A stretch of 64,000 nucleotides of DNA from Pseudooceanicola aestuarii. Lineage in GTDB: Bacteria; Pseudomonadota; Alphaproteobacteria; Rhodobacterales; Rhodobacteraceae. Below are positions 4,335 through 44,498 of the stretch, one piece after another. The first letter of the stretch is position 1. Each line of letters begins with the position of its first letter. Made by a program: the position numbers and the translations under genes. The stretch spans positions 2,644,001 to 2,708,000 of the forward strand of contig NZ_JAAFZC010000001.1 of the NCBI RefSeq assembly GCF_010614805.1. The letters run 5' to 3'. The notes under the pieces were generated by a model that ran no database searches, had not been told where the DNA came from, and was given only the letters and a program-made list of their open reading frames with translations.

Positions 4335-4349
4335 GAACAAGAGGCGAAC
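4335..4349. promoter_or_regulatory. LexA (SOS) box of recA
   Basis: GAACAAGAGGCGAAC is an exact GAAC-N7-GAAC direct repeat, the reverse complement of the alphaproteobacterial LexA operator GTTC-N7-GTTC. It lies just past the predicted -10 element and 49 bp before the recA ATG, as expected for LexA repression of recA. Confidence 0.9.
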
Positions 4350-16324: not shown

Positions 16325-17521
16325 TCAATCCTTCAGGCTTTCTTCGCGCAGGCCATCGGCCAGCAGGTTCAGCCCCAGCACCATGGACAGTAGCGCCATG
16401 GCGGGCACGATCGCGGGATGCGGATAGATCGACAGCAGCTTGCGCCCCTGATTGATCGTCGTCCCCCAATCCGGGCTTTCCGGTGGCAGACCCAGCCCGA
16501 AGAAGCCCAGCGTGCCCAGCAGGATGGTGGTGTAGCCGATGCGCAGGCAGAAATCGACGATCAGCGGGCCGCGCGCATTGGGCAGGATCTCCCACAGCAT
16601 GATGTACCACGGCCCTTCGCCCCGGGTCTGGGCGGCGGCGACGTAATCGCGGGTCTGGATGTCCAGAGCCAGCCCCCGCACGATCCGAAACACCGTGGGC
16701 GCGTTGACGAAGACGACGGCGACAAACACGATCAGGATGCCGCCGGGAATGTCGAACAGGTCCACCGCGCCGGGCAGGAAGTTGATCGGCGTGCCGGGAT
16801 CGTTGATCAACGACAGGTAGAGCCACCCCAGCCCGATGATCAGCACCGACAGCAATATCGTGCGGCGCGCGGGCTGCGTGTGGTAACGCGAATTGATCAG
16901 CACCGTCAGGAAGATGATCGGGAACAGGAACAGCACCACCGCCATGTAGCCCGGGATCCCCGTGGCCACCATTTCCGGCGTCACCAGCAGGTAGAACAGC
17001 AAGATCACCGGGAAGGCCAGGATCAGGTTGGCAAGGAAGGACAGCACCGTATCCAGCCGCTTGCCGAAATATCCCGCCGGCAGGCCCAGCGTGATCCCCA
17101 CCATGAAGGCAAAGACAGTGGCCAGCGGCGCGATGCGGATCACCACCCAACTGCCCGAGACCATGCGCGAAAAGACGTCCCGCGCCAGCGTGTCGCCCCC
17201 CAGCAGGTAATAGGGATAATCGCCCGCCTCCGCCCCGCGCAGGGGGGTGCCGGGGGCCTTGTTCTTCATTCCCGTCGCGGCGCTGAGCGGATCGTGGGTG
17301 ACAATCCAGTCGAACAATCCGACGAACAGGCCGGTATAGACCCAGAACATGACAAGGCCGAAGCCCACCATGCCGATGATGTTGTCAAAGAGTTTGCCGT
17401 AAAGCCCCAGCCGTCGCTTGTAGAGGATCGACAGTGCAAAGGTGAGCAGAAGTGCGATCCAGACCGGCGTGAACTGGTAGAGAACGCGGGGAATGATCTC
17501 CCCCCATGTCAACGGTTCCAT
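16325..17521 (-). CDS. Peptide-type ABC transporter permease (DppC family)
   Basis: A 398-residue inner-membrane protein, about 100 residues longer than typical DppC. It has two N-terminal membrane spans and the binding-protein-dependent transport core with the EAA-type loop around IQTRDYVAAAQTRGEGPWYIML. The extra length lies in the first periplasmic region (DPLSAATGMKNKAPGTPLRG) and in an inserted pair of spans with the loop NDPGTPINFLPGAVDLFDIPGG. GGDTLARDVFSRMVSG is a hallmark of DppC-type permeases. It lies 12 bp after the stop of the partner permease gene. Confidence 0.92.
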   Translation of the reverse strand: MEPLTWGEIIPRVLYQFTPVWIALLLTFALSILYKRRLGLYGKLFDNIIGMVGFGLVMFWVYTGLFVGLFDWIVTHDPLSAATGMKNKAPGTPLRGAEAGDYPYYLLGGDTLARDVFSRMVSGSWVVIRIAPLATVFAFMVGITLGLPAGYFGKRLDTVLSFLANLILAFPVILLFYLLVTPEMVATGIPGYMAVVLFLFPIIFLTVLINSRYHTQPARRTILLSVLIIGLGWLYLSLINDPGTPINFLPGAVDLFDIPGGILIVFVAVVFVNAPTVFRIVRGLALDIQTRDYVAAAQTRGEGPWYIMLWEILPNARGPLIVDFCLRIGYTTILLGTLGFFGLGLPPESPDWGTTINQGRKLLSIYPHPAIVPAMALLSMVLGLNLLADGLREESLKD

Positions 17522-17533
17522 TCCTGTTCCCCC

Positions 17534-18577
17534 TTACGAGATCCGGATGCGCGGATTGAGGTAGACATACCCGATATCCGAAATCAGTTGGGTCATCAGC
17601 ACGACAAAGACCGACACCACCGAGATGCCCAGCAGCAGGTCGATATCGTTGTTGCCCGCGGCCTGCACCAGCGCCCAGCCCAGACCCTTGTAATTGAACA
17701 GGGTCTCGACAATGACGACGCCGTTCAGGATCCACGGGAATTGCAGCATGATCACGGTGAACGGCGCGATCAGCGCGTTGCGCAGCGCGTGTTTCAGCAC
17801 GATGTTTCGAAAGGTCACGCCCTTCAGCCGGGCGGTGCGGACATATTGCGCTGTCATCACCTCGGCCATGGAGGCGCGGGTCATGCGGGCGATGTAGCCC
17901 ATGCCGTATAGCGCAATGGTCAGCACCGGCAGAAAGAAGTTCTCGAAGGTGGCATCGTTCATCGCCGCCGTCGCCGTGCCCTTGAACCATTTCAGTCCCA
18001 CGGCGGAGGAGGCGAAGACCGCAATCAGGATCACGCCCGAGACATATTCCGGTGTCGCCGTCGTCGCGATGGAGAAGGTCGACAGCCCCCGGTCCAGCCG
18101 CGACCCTTCGCGCATACCCGCCAGCACGCCGATCGTCAGCGCCATGGGAACCATCAGGATCATGACCCAGAACATCAGCTTGCCCGTCAGCGCCAGTCGC
18201 GTGCCGACGATGGTGACGACCTCTTCACGGAAGACGCGGCTTTCGCCCCATTGGCCCTGAAGAATGCCGCAGAAGGTGGCGGATTCCTCGGCCGTCATGC
18301 CGGGTGTGACGCAGCGCCCGCGATAGCCGTTGGCGGTGTCGGAGGTCCAGCCCGGCCAGACGCCCAGCCATTCGCCATAGCGGATCGGCATCGGCTGGTT
18401 GAAGCCGTTGTTTTCCAGCCAGTTGGCGACCTGCTCGTCGCTCATTCGGCTGTTGCCTTCGAACTTCGCGATCTTTTCCAGGTTCGGCTCTAGATTGGTG
18501 AAGAAGAACACGATGAAGCTGAGGCACAGCGCCGTCAGGATCATCGTCCCTGTCCTTTTCAGAAGGAAGAGGAGCAT
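17534..18577 (-). CDS. Peptide-type ABC transporter permease (DppB family)
   Basis: A 347-residue inner-membrane protein. The N-terminal span (LLFLLKRTGTMILTALCLSF) is followed by a long periplasmic loop, then the permease core with the coupling-helix sequence YVRTARLKGVTFRNIVLKHALRN and the closing NPRIRIS, all DppB-like. The ATG at 18577 is preferred: it follows CAGGG and yields the usual DppB N-terminus, whereas 18625 would add 16 basic residues. A strong hairpin lies between this gene and the preceding substrate-binding protein gene. Confidence 0.92.
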   Translation of the reverse strand: MLLFLLKRTGTMILTALCLSFIVFFFTNLEPNLEKIAKFEGNSRMSDEQVANWLENNGFNQPMPIRYGEWLGVWPGWTSDTANGYRGRCVTPGMTAEESATFCGILQGQWGESRVFREEVVTIVGTRLALTGKLMFWVMILMVPMALTIGVLAGMREGSRLDRGLSTFSIATTATPEYVSGVILIAVFASSAVGLKWFKGTATAAMNDATFENFFLPVLTIALYGMGYIARMTRASMAEVMTAQYVRTARLKGVTFRNIVLKHALRNALIAPFTVIMLQFPWILNGVVIVETLFNYKGLGWALVQAAGNNDIDLLLGISVVSVFVVLMTQLISDIGYVYLNPRIRIS

Positions 18578-18646
18578 ATCTTTTCCCTGTCTGGCCGCGC
18601 GGCCGGGCGTTCGCCGCCTCTGCAATCGCGCCGCTGAGATCGGTAA

Positions 18647-37571: not shown

Positions 37572-42181
<4,610 letters not shown>

Positions 42182-42209
42182 CCGAAGAATATCCGGTTTG
42201 TTCGCAAAT

Positions 42210-42224
42210 GTTCCCAAAAAGTTC
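42210..42224. promoter_or_regulatory. LexA (SOS) box upstream of a 40-residue membrane protein
   Basis: GTTCCCAAAAAGTTC is an exact GTTC-N7-GTTC operator. A third GTTC lies at 42200-42203, six bases before the first half-site, so the locus has three GTTC half-sites in tandem. It is intergenic, after recG and 67 bp before the start codon of the small gene. Confidence 0.85.
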
Positions 42225-42291
42225 TTTACATGACGTAAGCGGTATGAGAACAAAGAGGCAACACGAGACGGAACACAGGAAGGGCGAACAG

Positions 42292-42414
42292 ATGCTGACA
42301 CAAATCATCACCGTGGCGAGCCGGTCCCGCCGGACGTTGGTGCAGGATCTTCTGGGCGTTGTCGCCCTGATGGTACTGCTGCTTGCCTGTCTGTTTCTTC
42401 CCGGTTTCGGATGA
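42292..42414 (+). CDS. SOS-controlled small membrane protein (40 aa), candidate division inhibitor analogue
   Basis: ATG preceded by GGAAGGG at normal spacing. The 40-residue product has a basic N-terminal half (SRSRRT at about residues 10-15) and a single hydrophobic segment (about residues 19-38, GVVALMVLLLACLFLPGF), predicting N-in, C-out insertion in the inner membrane. It is isolated between an exact LexA box and a perfect terminator, so it forms its own SOS-inducible unit. In Caulobacter the LexA-controlled 29-residue membrane protein SidA blocks division through FtsW/FtsN; size, topology and control are alike here, but no sequence homology is claimed. A longer in-frame start at 42244 lacks a good ribosome-binding site. 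Confidence 0.7.
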   Translation: MLTQIITVASRSRRTLVQDLLGVVALMVLLLACLFLPGFG

Positions 42415-42543
42415 GTTTCTGCCCGCGTTCCAGTGACTGGATCCCCCGCTGTCCCAGCGGCCCGGTCTTGCCTGATCCGGCTTTAGGGGTTGCCTCATGC
42501 CCCGTTCGGGGATCTGGAGTCCCGCATTGGAACGCTATTACTG

Positions 42544-42578
42544 ACCGCCGCATCCTCCCCGGATGCGGCGGTTTTTTT
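42544..42578 (+). terminator. Terminator of the SOS-controlled small gene
   Basis: ACCGCCGCATCC (42544-42555) pairs perfectly with GGATGCGGCGGT (42561-42572) across a five-base loop and is followed by a T7 run. It is one of the strongest terminators in the window and marks the small gene as an independent transcription unit. Confidence 0.9.
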
Positions 42579-42740
42579 CGTGAAAACTTGTCTGGAATGT
42601 TTCGAAGCCGACCGGGACGAATGGGTGCGATGCTCTGCCACCTGGCGCGCCGGCTGAACCGCTGGCGATACGGGTGTGCCCTGCGGCGCGGATTGTGGCC
42701 GATCTTTGGGATTGCGGGCGGGCAGTCCGCGCCGGGGCGC

Positions 42741-43214
42741 TCAGGCGCAGTCGGATCGGGCGGCGATATCCATTGCTTCCGACAGGGCGTCCAGAGACAG
42801 CAGAATGGAAGCGTGGCGGTTCTTGTACTCCTGCGCCGGGCGCAGAACTTCCAGCCCCCCGAACGGGGCGGGCGGGGTCGGGCCGTCGTCCTTCAGCATC
42901 GCCTTCAACGCGTCGCGGGCGGCGTGAATTTCGTCCCGGCTGGCGCCGATCACATGCGCGCCGACGACGCTGGCGGCTGCCTGGCCCAGGGCGCAGGCCT
43001 TCACGTCCTGCGCGTAATCCGATATCCGCCCGTCGGCGACCTGCACATCCACGGTCACGGTCGATCCGCACAGCGGCGCCCGGCGTTTCACGCTGGCGGC
43101 AGGGCTGTCCAGCCGGCCGGTGCGGGGAATATCCGCCGCAAGGGCCAGTATACGTTCGGAGTAAAGCTTGATGAGATCGCTATCGGCCAAACCGGATCCT
43201 TTCGGCACTGTCAT
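42741..43214 (-). CDS. NifU/IscU-like iron-sulfur cluster scaffold family protein
   Basis: A 157-residue cytoplasmic protein of the IscU/NifU N-terminal fold. LCGSTVTVDVQV and DVKACALGQAAASVVG carry the first two conserved cysteines, and SLDALSEAM is near the C-terminus. The third scaffold cysteine is not present: the position reads NRHASILLSLDAL where IscU has a Cys. It might therefore be a specialised scaffold or delivery protein, for example associated with the SUF pathway, rather than a classical IscU. It is divergent from hisI, 57 bp apart. Confidence 0.8.
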   Translation of the reverse strand: MTVPKGSGLADSDLIKLYSERILALAADIPRTGRLDSPAASVKRRAPLCGSTVTVDVQVADGRISDYAQDVKACALGQAAASVVGAHVIGASRDEIHAARDALKAMLKDDGPTPPAPFGGLEVLRPAQEYKNRHASILLSLDALSEAMDIAARSDCA

Positions 43215-43271
43215 TCGCTGGGTTATGCCTTAGATAGGCGCAAGCCGCCATGATGCAAAAGGTTATGCCCG

Positions 43272-43631
43272 ATGTCCTTCGATCCTGCCACGCTGAAATA
43301 CGACGCCAAGGGGCTGATCCCCGCCATCGCACAGGATGCGGAGAGTGGTGAGGTCCTCATGATGGCCTGGATGAACGCCGAATCCGTTGCCCGCACGCTG
43401 GAGACGGAGCGCGTGACCTATTGGTCCCGTTCGCGGCAGGCATTCTGGGTCAAGGGAGAAAGCTCGGGCCATGTGCAGAAATTGCGGGCGTTCCGGGTGG
43501 ATTGCGACCGCGATTGCCTGCTGGTCCTGGTGGATCAGGAGGGGCCGGCCTGCCATACCAACCGTCGCAGCTGTTTCTACACCGAGGTGCAGGAGGGGGC
43601 GGAGGTCGAGCTGATGAAACCCATGGTCTGA
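43272..43631 (+). CDS. hisI: Phosphoribosyl-AMP cyclohydrolase
   Basis: A 119-residue single-domain HisI that opens the adenine ring of PR-AMP in histidine synthesis. The conserved stretch VLMMAWMNAESVARTLETERVTYWSRSRQ is followed by VDCDRDCLLVLV and ACHTNRRSCFY, which hold the zinc and magnesium ligands. It lacks a fused HisE domain, as usual in alphaproteobacteria. The other his genes are not nearby. It converges with gluQ. Confidence 0.97.
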   Translation: MSFDPATLKYDAKGLIPAIAQDAESGEVLMMAWMNAESVARTLETERVTYWSRSRQAFWVKGESSGHVQKLRAFRVDCDRDCLLVLVDQEGPACHTNRRSCFYTEVQEGAEVELMKPMV

Positions 43632-43646
43632 GGCGCGCGACCCGCA

Positions 43647-44498
43647 TCAGAGGCCGATCATGCGGCGCAGATCCGCCGGGCTTTGCCCACCCTCCCGGTA
43701 GAGAGCGATGGCACGGGCGTCGTCACGCTTCGCCAGCCGCTTGCCGGCTGCGTCGCGGATGAGGCGATGATGGTGATAGCGCGGGCGGGGCAGGTCCAGC
43801 AGGGCCTGCAACAGGACGTGGATTGCCGTGGCCTCGAACAGGTCGGCGCCGCGGGTGACCAGGGTGACGCCTTGGGCTGCGTCATCCACCACGACCGACA
43901 GGTGGTAGGAGGTGCCCATGTCGCGCCGCGCCAGTACCACATCGCCGATGGCGGTTGCCATGTGGTCGGTGCCGGGGGTGATCTGGCCGGCGTGATCGGG
44001 CCCTTCCTCGGCAAAGACAGGAGGGCCACGCAGCGCCAGGGCCCGGGCCATGTCCAGTCGCAGGGCGACGTCTTGCGGCATGGGGCCGGTGGGGGGCGTT
44101 GCCGGGCGGCAGGTGCCGGGATAGACAAGACCATCGGGGCCGTGTGGCGGCGGTGCCCCTTCCTGCGGGGCGCTGACAGCGGCGGCGATGTCGCGGCGGG
44201 CGCAGCGACAAGGGTAAAGCAGCCCGGCCTCCCACAACCGGTGCAGCGCTGCGTCATAGGCGGCCTGCCGGTCGGATTGGCGCATCACGGGTTCCGGCCA
44301 GGACAGGCCAAGCCACTGAAGATCATCGTAAATCTGTGCTTCCCAATGGGGGCGGGCGCGGGCGCGGTCGATATCCTCGATCCGCAGCAGGAAACGGCCG
44401 CCGGCGGTCTGGGCCAGATCTTGCGCCAGAAGCGCGGAATAGGCGTGGCCCAGGTGCAGCGGTCCGGTGGGAGACGGCGCGAAACGCGTGACTGTCAC
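43647..44498 (-). CDS. gluQ: Glutamyl-Q tRNA(Asp) synthetase
   Basis: A 283-residue truncated paralogue of GluRS catalytic core, without an anticodon-binding domain. It attaches glutamate to queuosine in tRNA-Asp. The class I signature is FAPSPTGPLHLGHAYSAL (HIGH-like HLGH) and the KMSKS-like site is KRLAKRDD. A zinc-binding region has CRCARRD and YPGTCR. The GTG at 44498 follows the stop of the methyltransferase gene after one base and gives the family N-terminus; upstream in-frame ATGs fall within that gene. Confidence 0.93.
   Translation of the reverse strand: MTVTRFAPSPTGPLHLGHAYSALLAQDLAQTAGGRFLLRIEDIDRARARPHWEAQIYDDLQWLGLSWPEPVMRQSDRQAAYDAALHRLWEAGLLYPCRCARRDIAAAVSAPQEGAPPPHGPDGLVYPGTCRPATPPTGPMPQDVALRLDMARALALRGPPVFAEEGPDHAGQITPGTDHMATAIGDVVLARRDMGTSYHLSVVVDDAAQGVTLVTRGADLFEATAIHVLLQALLDLPRPRYHHHRLIRDAAGKRLAKRDDARAIALYREGGQSPADLRRMIGL

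Follow-up and report, generated by a model that had tools for sequence, protein, structure and literature searches.

In Caulobacter crescentus, the LexA-controlled protein SidA, which has 29 residues and is located in the inner membrane, acts on FtsW and FtsN (PMC4211646, available text). YneA, ChiZ, and SosA are likewise SOS-induced small membrane proteins that inhibit division; the membrane helix of YneA binds TM7 of FtsW, and low-confidence models suggest FtsW as the target of ChiZ, SosA, and SidA (PMC13396833, available text). TisB and DinQ, known from the type I toxin-antitoxin pairs TisB-IstR and DinQ-AgrB, are SOS-induced single-span toxins and not division inhibitors; the dinQ promoter is under two LexA operators, DinQ left filamentation unchanged, and antisense RNAs keep the toxins under control (PMC3567139, available text). 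In Rhodobacter sphaeroides, the small RNAs (sRNAs) CcsR1-4 (from ccaF1), UdsB, and UdsC are derived from mRNA 3′ regions; RNase E matures several of them (PMC8625941 and PMC9779115, available texts).

Here we analyzed a window of 64,000 nucleotides from Pseudooceanicola aestuarii (contig NZ_JAAFZC010000001.1, positions 2,644,001 to 2,708,000), the whole stretch to which all positions below refer. Inspection of the sequence downstream of recG revealed a LexA-type operator, a second LexA-like site, and a promoter-like stretch, followed by a gene of 40 codons. With SidA, this gene shares predicted LexA control, a very small product within the single-span size range of about 30 to 40 residues, and an alphaproteobacterial host, a likeness of features; it differs in encoding 40 residues, in lying behind recG, and in the structured RNA downstream of it. 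Outside the membrane, YneA and ChiZ carry a LysM domain and SosA an extended region, whereas the microprotein described here has only a few residues past its membrane segment, and no LysM domain was matched among 38 relatives. The type I toxin-antitoxin pairs resemble the locus in their SOS-induced small membrane peptides and, for dinQ, in the two LexA operators; here the structured RNA lies on the same strand in the 3′ region, and neither the start of the leader nor the pairing of leader and 3′ RNA gave a sign of an antisense RNA. For the RNA part, the 3′-end sRNAs of R. sphaeroides are the closest precedent, as they also come from protein mRNAs (a small protein in the case of CcaF1) with RNA elements in the 3′ region. 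Their upstream genes are different (RSP_6037, RSP_1771, and RSP_7527), the RSP_7527-udsC promoter is of the RpoHII type, and recG occurs 0 times in the main texts of PMC8625941 and PMC9779115.

Our literature search covered SOS division inhibitors and SOS small proteins in the Rhodobacteraceae as well as the operator sequence, and we recognized no description of this gene, although an earlier mention is possible. Abundant marine bacteria belong to the Rhodobacteraceae, as do the Rhodobacter and Roseobacter models. Division arrest after DNA damage is not described for them in the literature searched; the locus is a candidate for such an arrest in most of the family genomes sampled, so that the question can be put to the test in laboratory strains. 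The locus further contributes a protein family and a structured RNA, both below the cutoffs of Pfam, NCBIfam, and Rfam. In the main text of a study of Dinoroseobacter shibae that predicted LexA sites in silico, recG is mentioned 0 times, and the available passages do not name the locus (PMC6473078; the site tables are in the supplements).

A LexA-type operator and putative promoter downstream of recG

recG (40094 to 42181, plus strand), identified by the Pfam domains RecG_wedge, DEAD, and RecG_dom3_C, is the constant upstream neighbor of the gene. It adjoined the open reading frame (ORF) in 28 of 28 loci of one set and in 22 of 25 loci of another, in which the three loci without recG were weak matches (E values of 0.2 to 0.8). 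A preliminary description of this DNA had placed the gene after recG and behind an exact GTTC-N7-GTTC operator with a third GTTC beside it. All of this was borne out: recG lies directly upstream, and a sequence scan located the operator at 42210 to 42224 (plus strand; site A) and the extra GTTC half-site 6 nucleotides before it (42200 to 42203, plus strand). What that description had overlooked is a second LexA-like site at 42248 to 42262 (site B), which reads GTTG-N7-GTTC on the minus strand (GAACAAAGAGGCAAC, GAAC-N7-CAAC, on the plus strand) and is close to the recA operator GAACAAGAGGCGAAC. On the plus strand, site A is followed by a −35-like element, TTTAC in this copy (42225 to 42229; the third base is G in 13 of 90 relatives), and a putative −10-like element, ATGAGAAC (42244 to 42251), that is conserved in the aligned loci. 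We take these to be the promoter elements, assuming the alphaproteobacterial, Caulobacter-type pattern; a sigma-70 scan of positions 41000 to 44000 found no promoter.

With seven occurrences in the window, where 1.14 are expected, and 128 in the 4.2-Mb genome, compared to 59 for the reversed pattern, the exact motif GTTC-N7-GTTC is weak evidence by itself. It was, however, present within 200 bp upstream in all 90 loci picked solely by protein similarity, with both GTTC halves of site A invariant in the alignment, whereas the control spacing GTTC-N8-GTTC was found in the same interval in 0 of 90, and we therefore accept the operator as not due to chance. GTTC-N6-GTTC, which includes the extra half-site, occurred within 200 bp upstream in 86 of the 90. 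These loci are strong protein matches (weakest E values of 7e-13 in the wider family, searched with a profile, and 2.4e-4 in the genus, searched with a single sequence), and the set excludes the weak tail of the family search, in which E reaches 0.0087. In the converse search, promoter DNA alone matched at least 118 stretches of the GTDB genome collection; among the 80 matches listed, all 80 lay behind recG and 79 carried the ORF, the 80th being truncated by the end of the data, and all titles were of Rhodobacteraceae-type organisms or unclassified Alphaproteobacteria.

The operators of known SOS genes in the genus are of the same type. GAAC-N7-GAAC was found upstream of recA in 22 of 22 genus loci, as GAACAAGAGGCGAAC in 19 of 22 genus genomes, and upstream of lexA in 21 of 21 loci (21 of the 22 genus genomes had a lexA match). 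Site B resembles this recA operator and, in two divergent relatives (G022 and G108), consists of an exact GAAC-N7-GAAC; hence our reading that LexA occupies the promoter at two positions. With the operator present at every one of the protein-selected loci, conservation supports well the LexA control proposed in the preliminary description, and we consider it highly probable that the gene belongs to the SOS regulon, with LexA predicted to bind at the locus and DNA damage to induce it.

The window also contains recA itself (from about 4444, plus strand), with the LexA operator GAACAAGAGGCGAAC at 4335 to 4349 (minus strand), 109 bp before the matched start, which was used as a yardstick. Elsewhere in the window, an opposed pair of GTTC-N7-GTTC motifs (17471 to 17485, minus strand, and 17515 to 17529, plus strand), 29 bp apart, surrounds the start of an ORF at 16325 to 17521 (minus strand) and is probably due to chance. 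The spacer of site A (window positions 42210 to 42229 and relatives) contains a very strongly conserved A-tract that is absent from the lexA and recA operators, suggesting that a further factor may bind there.

A 40-codon gene found across the Rhodobacteraceae

The ORF has 40 codons, as described before, and extends from the ATG at 42292 to the TGA at 42414 (42292 to 42414, plus strand), with the Shine-Dalgarno-like sequence AGGAAGGG (42277 to 42284, plus strand) 7 nucleotides before the start. A Shine-Dalgarno-like 4-mer was present in the leaders of 145 of 157 relatives. Conservation of the ORF, ribosome-binding site, and box beyond this strain had been named in the preliminary description as a check; it was run here, and all three proved to be conserved.

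Within the genus, the protein was detected in 20 of 21 other genomes (E ≤ 2.4e-4, 45 to 59% identity), and the sole genome without a match is 77% complete. A profile built from 21 sequences detected it in 346 of 395 Rhodobacteraceae genomes sampled, representing 312 of 351 genera (E ≤ 0.01). Twenty of the 49 apparent negatives were examined: 8 contained the promoter pattern (0 of 20 for the reversed control), with a short membrane ORF of divergent sequence behind it in each case, and the exact pattern was absent from the other 12. recG was found for seven of these eight divergent loci; one further promoter site, in genome G077, had neither recG nor a short membrane ORF. The divergent versions L317 (genome G108) and L316/L324 (genome G022) keep both LexA sites and the match to the 3′ RNA with a protein below the profile threshold, so that 346 of 395 understates the true range. 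We interpret the locus as a LexA-repressed SOS transcription unit that forms part of the Rhodobacteraceae core.

Among 387 genomes sampled across the class, 15 gave a match at E ≤ 0.05, 6 within the family and 9 outside it. On inspection, the nine outside (E values of 4e-4 to 0.022) all proved to lie inside open frames of 245 to 547 codons; two of them span profile positions 4 to 37 and 4 to 39, recG was found in 0 of 9 in the stretch inspected, and GTTC-N7-GTTC was found in 0 of 9 in the preceding 250 bp.

A protein database search returned 592 relatives at E ≤ 0.001 among 1,190 candidates; for the best 120 of these 592, every readable name is "hypothetical" or "uncharacterized," and Pfam domains are lacking throughout. 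The window protein itself matched 0 Pfam families. With a profile of 38 rows, two families were hit in Pfam (best E, 0.024), two in NCBIfam (best E, 0.055), and one in PHROGs (E, 0.0029; its function is not known), in every case by a single member, and there was no match in the PDB.

Conserved features of the microprotein

The single membrane helix of the preliminary description agrees with what was found here: the protein has one strongly hydrophobic stretch, and AlphaFold2 predicts one helix comprising residues 2 to 39 (mean pLDDT, 82.7). All 160 distinct proteins contain a 17-residue window with a mean hydropathy of ≥1.75, and none of the 160 has a charged residue past the membrane segment. 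A basic N terminus, also noted earlier, is a property of this copy and not a general trait, since among the 160 proteins, the part preceding the membrane segment carries a net positive charge in 69, no net charge in 64, and a net negative charge in 27.

D19 and G22 are invariant in the 160 distinct proteins, and L34 (159 of 160), P37 (158 of 159), L26 (153 of 160), and L30 (146 of 160) are nearly so. The eight divergent versions have D at position 19 in seven cases and E in one, and G at position 22 in seven cases and A in one. The six conserved positions lie on one face of the helix (R = 0.81, a value matched by 0.16% of random sextets, the six having been picked after their conservation was seen); an unselected spectrum test gave a P value of 0.047 and showed, near 125 degrees, another peak about as high. 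A conserved face that ends in Leu-Pro suggests that the helix has a protein partner. The median dN/dS over 70 pairs, which are not independent of each other, was about 0.15, indicating purifying selection. Conservation thus supports well that this is a real, translated gene and that its predicted product spans the membrane once. In Paracoccus saliphilus (locus L203), a 31-residue version retains the D-x-x-G membrane core, with most of the N-terminal part missing.

A structured RNA in the 3′ region

The gene had been described as self-contained and ending in a perfect terminator. This part of the description did not hold: 128 nucleotides separate the stop codon from the terminator hairpin, and these belong to a structured RNA that is conserved (42417 to 42577, plus strand, including the terminator). 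Its architecture consists of a closing helix (42425 to 42434 with 42526 to 42535, plus strand) around a branched domain (42425 to 42535) that folds into three inner hairpins in this copy, and an intrinsic terminator hairpin with a CCGCCGC stem followed by a T run (42543 to 42573, plus strand), in whose outer helix 100% of cells are paired. From the stop codon to the T run of the terminator, the element measures about 150 to 220 nucleotides, and its first motif, TTCTGCCTGC or a close variant, was matched in 34 of 50 loci, 2 to 43 nucleotides past the stop codon. This varying gap suggests that ORF and RNA are cotranscribed from the LexA promoter as a single transcript.

Compared with shuffled sequences, the copy in the window has a fold that is better by 5.95 standard deviations (z-score, −5.95). 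An RNA model built from 21 sequences (R1) matched 98 of 100 loci (the window, 24 of the 28 loci L085 to L112, and 75 of the 80 promoter-selected loci), with no match at L173 and L174. Ninety-six of the 98 are nontraining sequences; the matches of the window and of L193 equal or contain training sequences. Under strict filters, the model was found in 83 of 120 family genomes; outside the family, it matched in 8 genomes (best E values of 5.7e-5 to 0.0072, by score only). A closing helix of at least 5 bp was present in the folds of 94 of the 98 relatives, 56 of these 94 having three inner hairpins. The consensus structure consists of the closing helix and the terminator only, as the inner hairpins vary in length and come from single folds. 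Double changes were seen at 15 of the 18 modeled pairs (97 distinct rows), and the covariation score was 0.463, a value attained by 0 of 500 shuffles (score, 0.150); with slid partners, the score did not exceed 0.083. The score of the RNA is favored because the alignment was fitted to the structure. GCCTG, GCCTC, and TGTCC motifs are enriched (4.1 per RNA versus 1.2 in single-base shuffles) and are often located in loops, being 66% unpaired compared to 40% overall.

None of the Rfam families reached its gathering cutoff at the 3′ RNA, Xoo2 (27.8 bits; cutoff, 45) and ar7 (16.6 bits; cutoff, 60) remaining below it. 6S RNA (RF00013) has its only match in the genome elsewhere (C1:2280422-2280578; 35 bits, below the cutoff of 46.4). 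UdsC of R. sphaeroides was rejected as the same RNA, its gene RSP_7527 having an RpoHII-type promoter and the sRNA a length of 67 nucleotides (PMC8625941, available text). The available part of a survey of 104 RNAs contains no known motif that matches the 3′ RNA (PMC2864571), and the main text of an sRNA survey in Ruegeria pomeroyi mentions recG, SOS, and LexA 0 times (PMC4809877). Pairing in cis between the leader and the 3′ RNA of one transcript was also rejected, as matched pairs (−29.90 kcal/mol) were no better than mismatched ones (−29.97 kcal/mol) in 157 transcripts. The 3′ RNA probably either stabilizes the message or is processed to an sRNA. Elsewhere in the window, Cis52_sRNA of Ruegeria (Rfam RF02647) was matched with 134.8 bits at 17779 to 17956 (plus strand), antisense to a permease-like ORF at 17534 to 18625 (minus strand).

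Proposed function and alternatives

Since a single-span microprotein under predicted LexA control is present in most of the family and has a conserved helix face, a specific membrane partner fits it best. In our model, LexA bound to site A, over the −35 region, keeps the unit off in undamaged cells, and LexA probably also occupies site B, which covers the −10 and start region. Upon DNA damage, RecA filaments would trigger self-cleavage of LexA, and one message would be made that encodes the 40-residue inner membrane microprotein and ends in the branched RNA. The microprotein would most likely pack the face formed by D19, G22, L26, L30, L34, and P37 against a partner membrane protein, the likeliest candidates being late divisome components such as FtsW, FtsI, or FtsN, and septation would pause until repair is done.

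That the microprotein is a division inhibitor, SidA-like in principle, is thus our best single guess, which we put at a little below an even chance. The known SOS-induced single-span proteins that have a target act on late division, an analogy that favors this reading. It is also favored by the lack of a SulA homologue: the domain PF03846 was detected in none of the 22 genus genomes searched (the Escherichia coli control was positive). Nor did 38 relatives of the microprotein give a SulA match. Against the division reading counts that an occurrence in most family genomes is not in itself a pointer to it. For this gene, our literature search found no expression, phenotype, or interaction evidence from any organism.

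A main rival is an SOS peptide like TisB or DinQ, which would insert into the inner membrane, lower its potential, and slow growth, leading to tolerance with no specific block of division. Size class, single span, and LexA control would all be the same, and so would the two LexA operators, as in dinQ (PMC3567139, available text); these peptides also demonstrate that SOS-induced single-span proteins need not act on division. Those toxins are, however, checked by antisense RNAs, for which the aligned start of the leader (first bases only) offers no conserved block beyond the promoter and the leader-3′ RNA pairing energies give no support. The conserved Leu-Pro-ending face points instead to a protein partner. 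Type I toxins of this sort are usually patchy in distribution, unlike the occurrence across most of a family seen here, and we regard this function as unlikely.

Equally, the partner might be a different membrane protein, such as the CckA/DivL phosphorelay, a protease, or a transporter, so that the microprotein would be an SOS-induced regulator that links damage to the cell cycle or to gene transfer agents. Small membrane proteins commonly tune larger ones, and the range of the gene fits the Rhodobacteraceae. In Rhodobacter capsulatus, the gene transfer agent RcGTA requires LexA by a mechanism that is not known but appears to act via CckA (PMC9638019, available text). We would not expect this regulator role to be the correct one, but depolarization of the TisB/DinQ kind and control of a protein such as CckA share most of the probability left by division inhibition.

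It is much less probable that the RNA is the main product, with the LexA promoter driving an sRNA precursor and the ORF a secondary passenger. The strong covariation of the 3′ RNA and its enrichment in largely unpaired GCCTG/GCCTC/TGTCC motifs would agree with this, as would the several sRNAs that R. sphaeroides derives from mRNA 3′ untranslated regions (PMC8625941, available text), but the clear purifying selection on the protein and its invariant residues imply that the ORF is no passenger. The RNA might instead act alongside the protein. One rather doubtful extension of the division inhibitor reading is that a single SOS message serves as a Rhodobacteraceae-wide checkpoint, in which the microprotein would halt septation by helix packing while the 3′ RNA, with its CCU-rich loops, would mature into an sRNA that retunes translation during repair, both being fired by LexA.

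Least probable of all is that a regulator other than LexA reads the promoter block and that the GTTC repeats are coincidental, for although the block exceeds one LexA box in both length and conservation and its first GTTC is spaced by N6 rather than N7 in 86 of 90 loci, GTTC-N7-GTTC is exact in 90 of 90, and site B resembles the recA operator and is exactly GAAC-N7-GAAC in G022 and G108.
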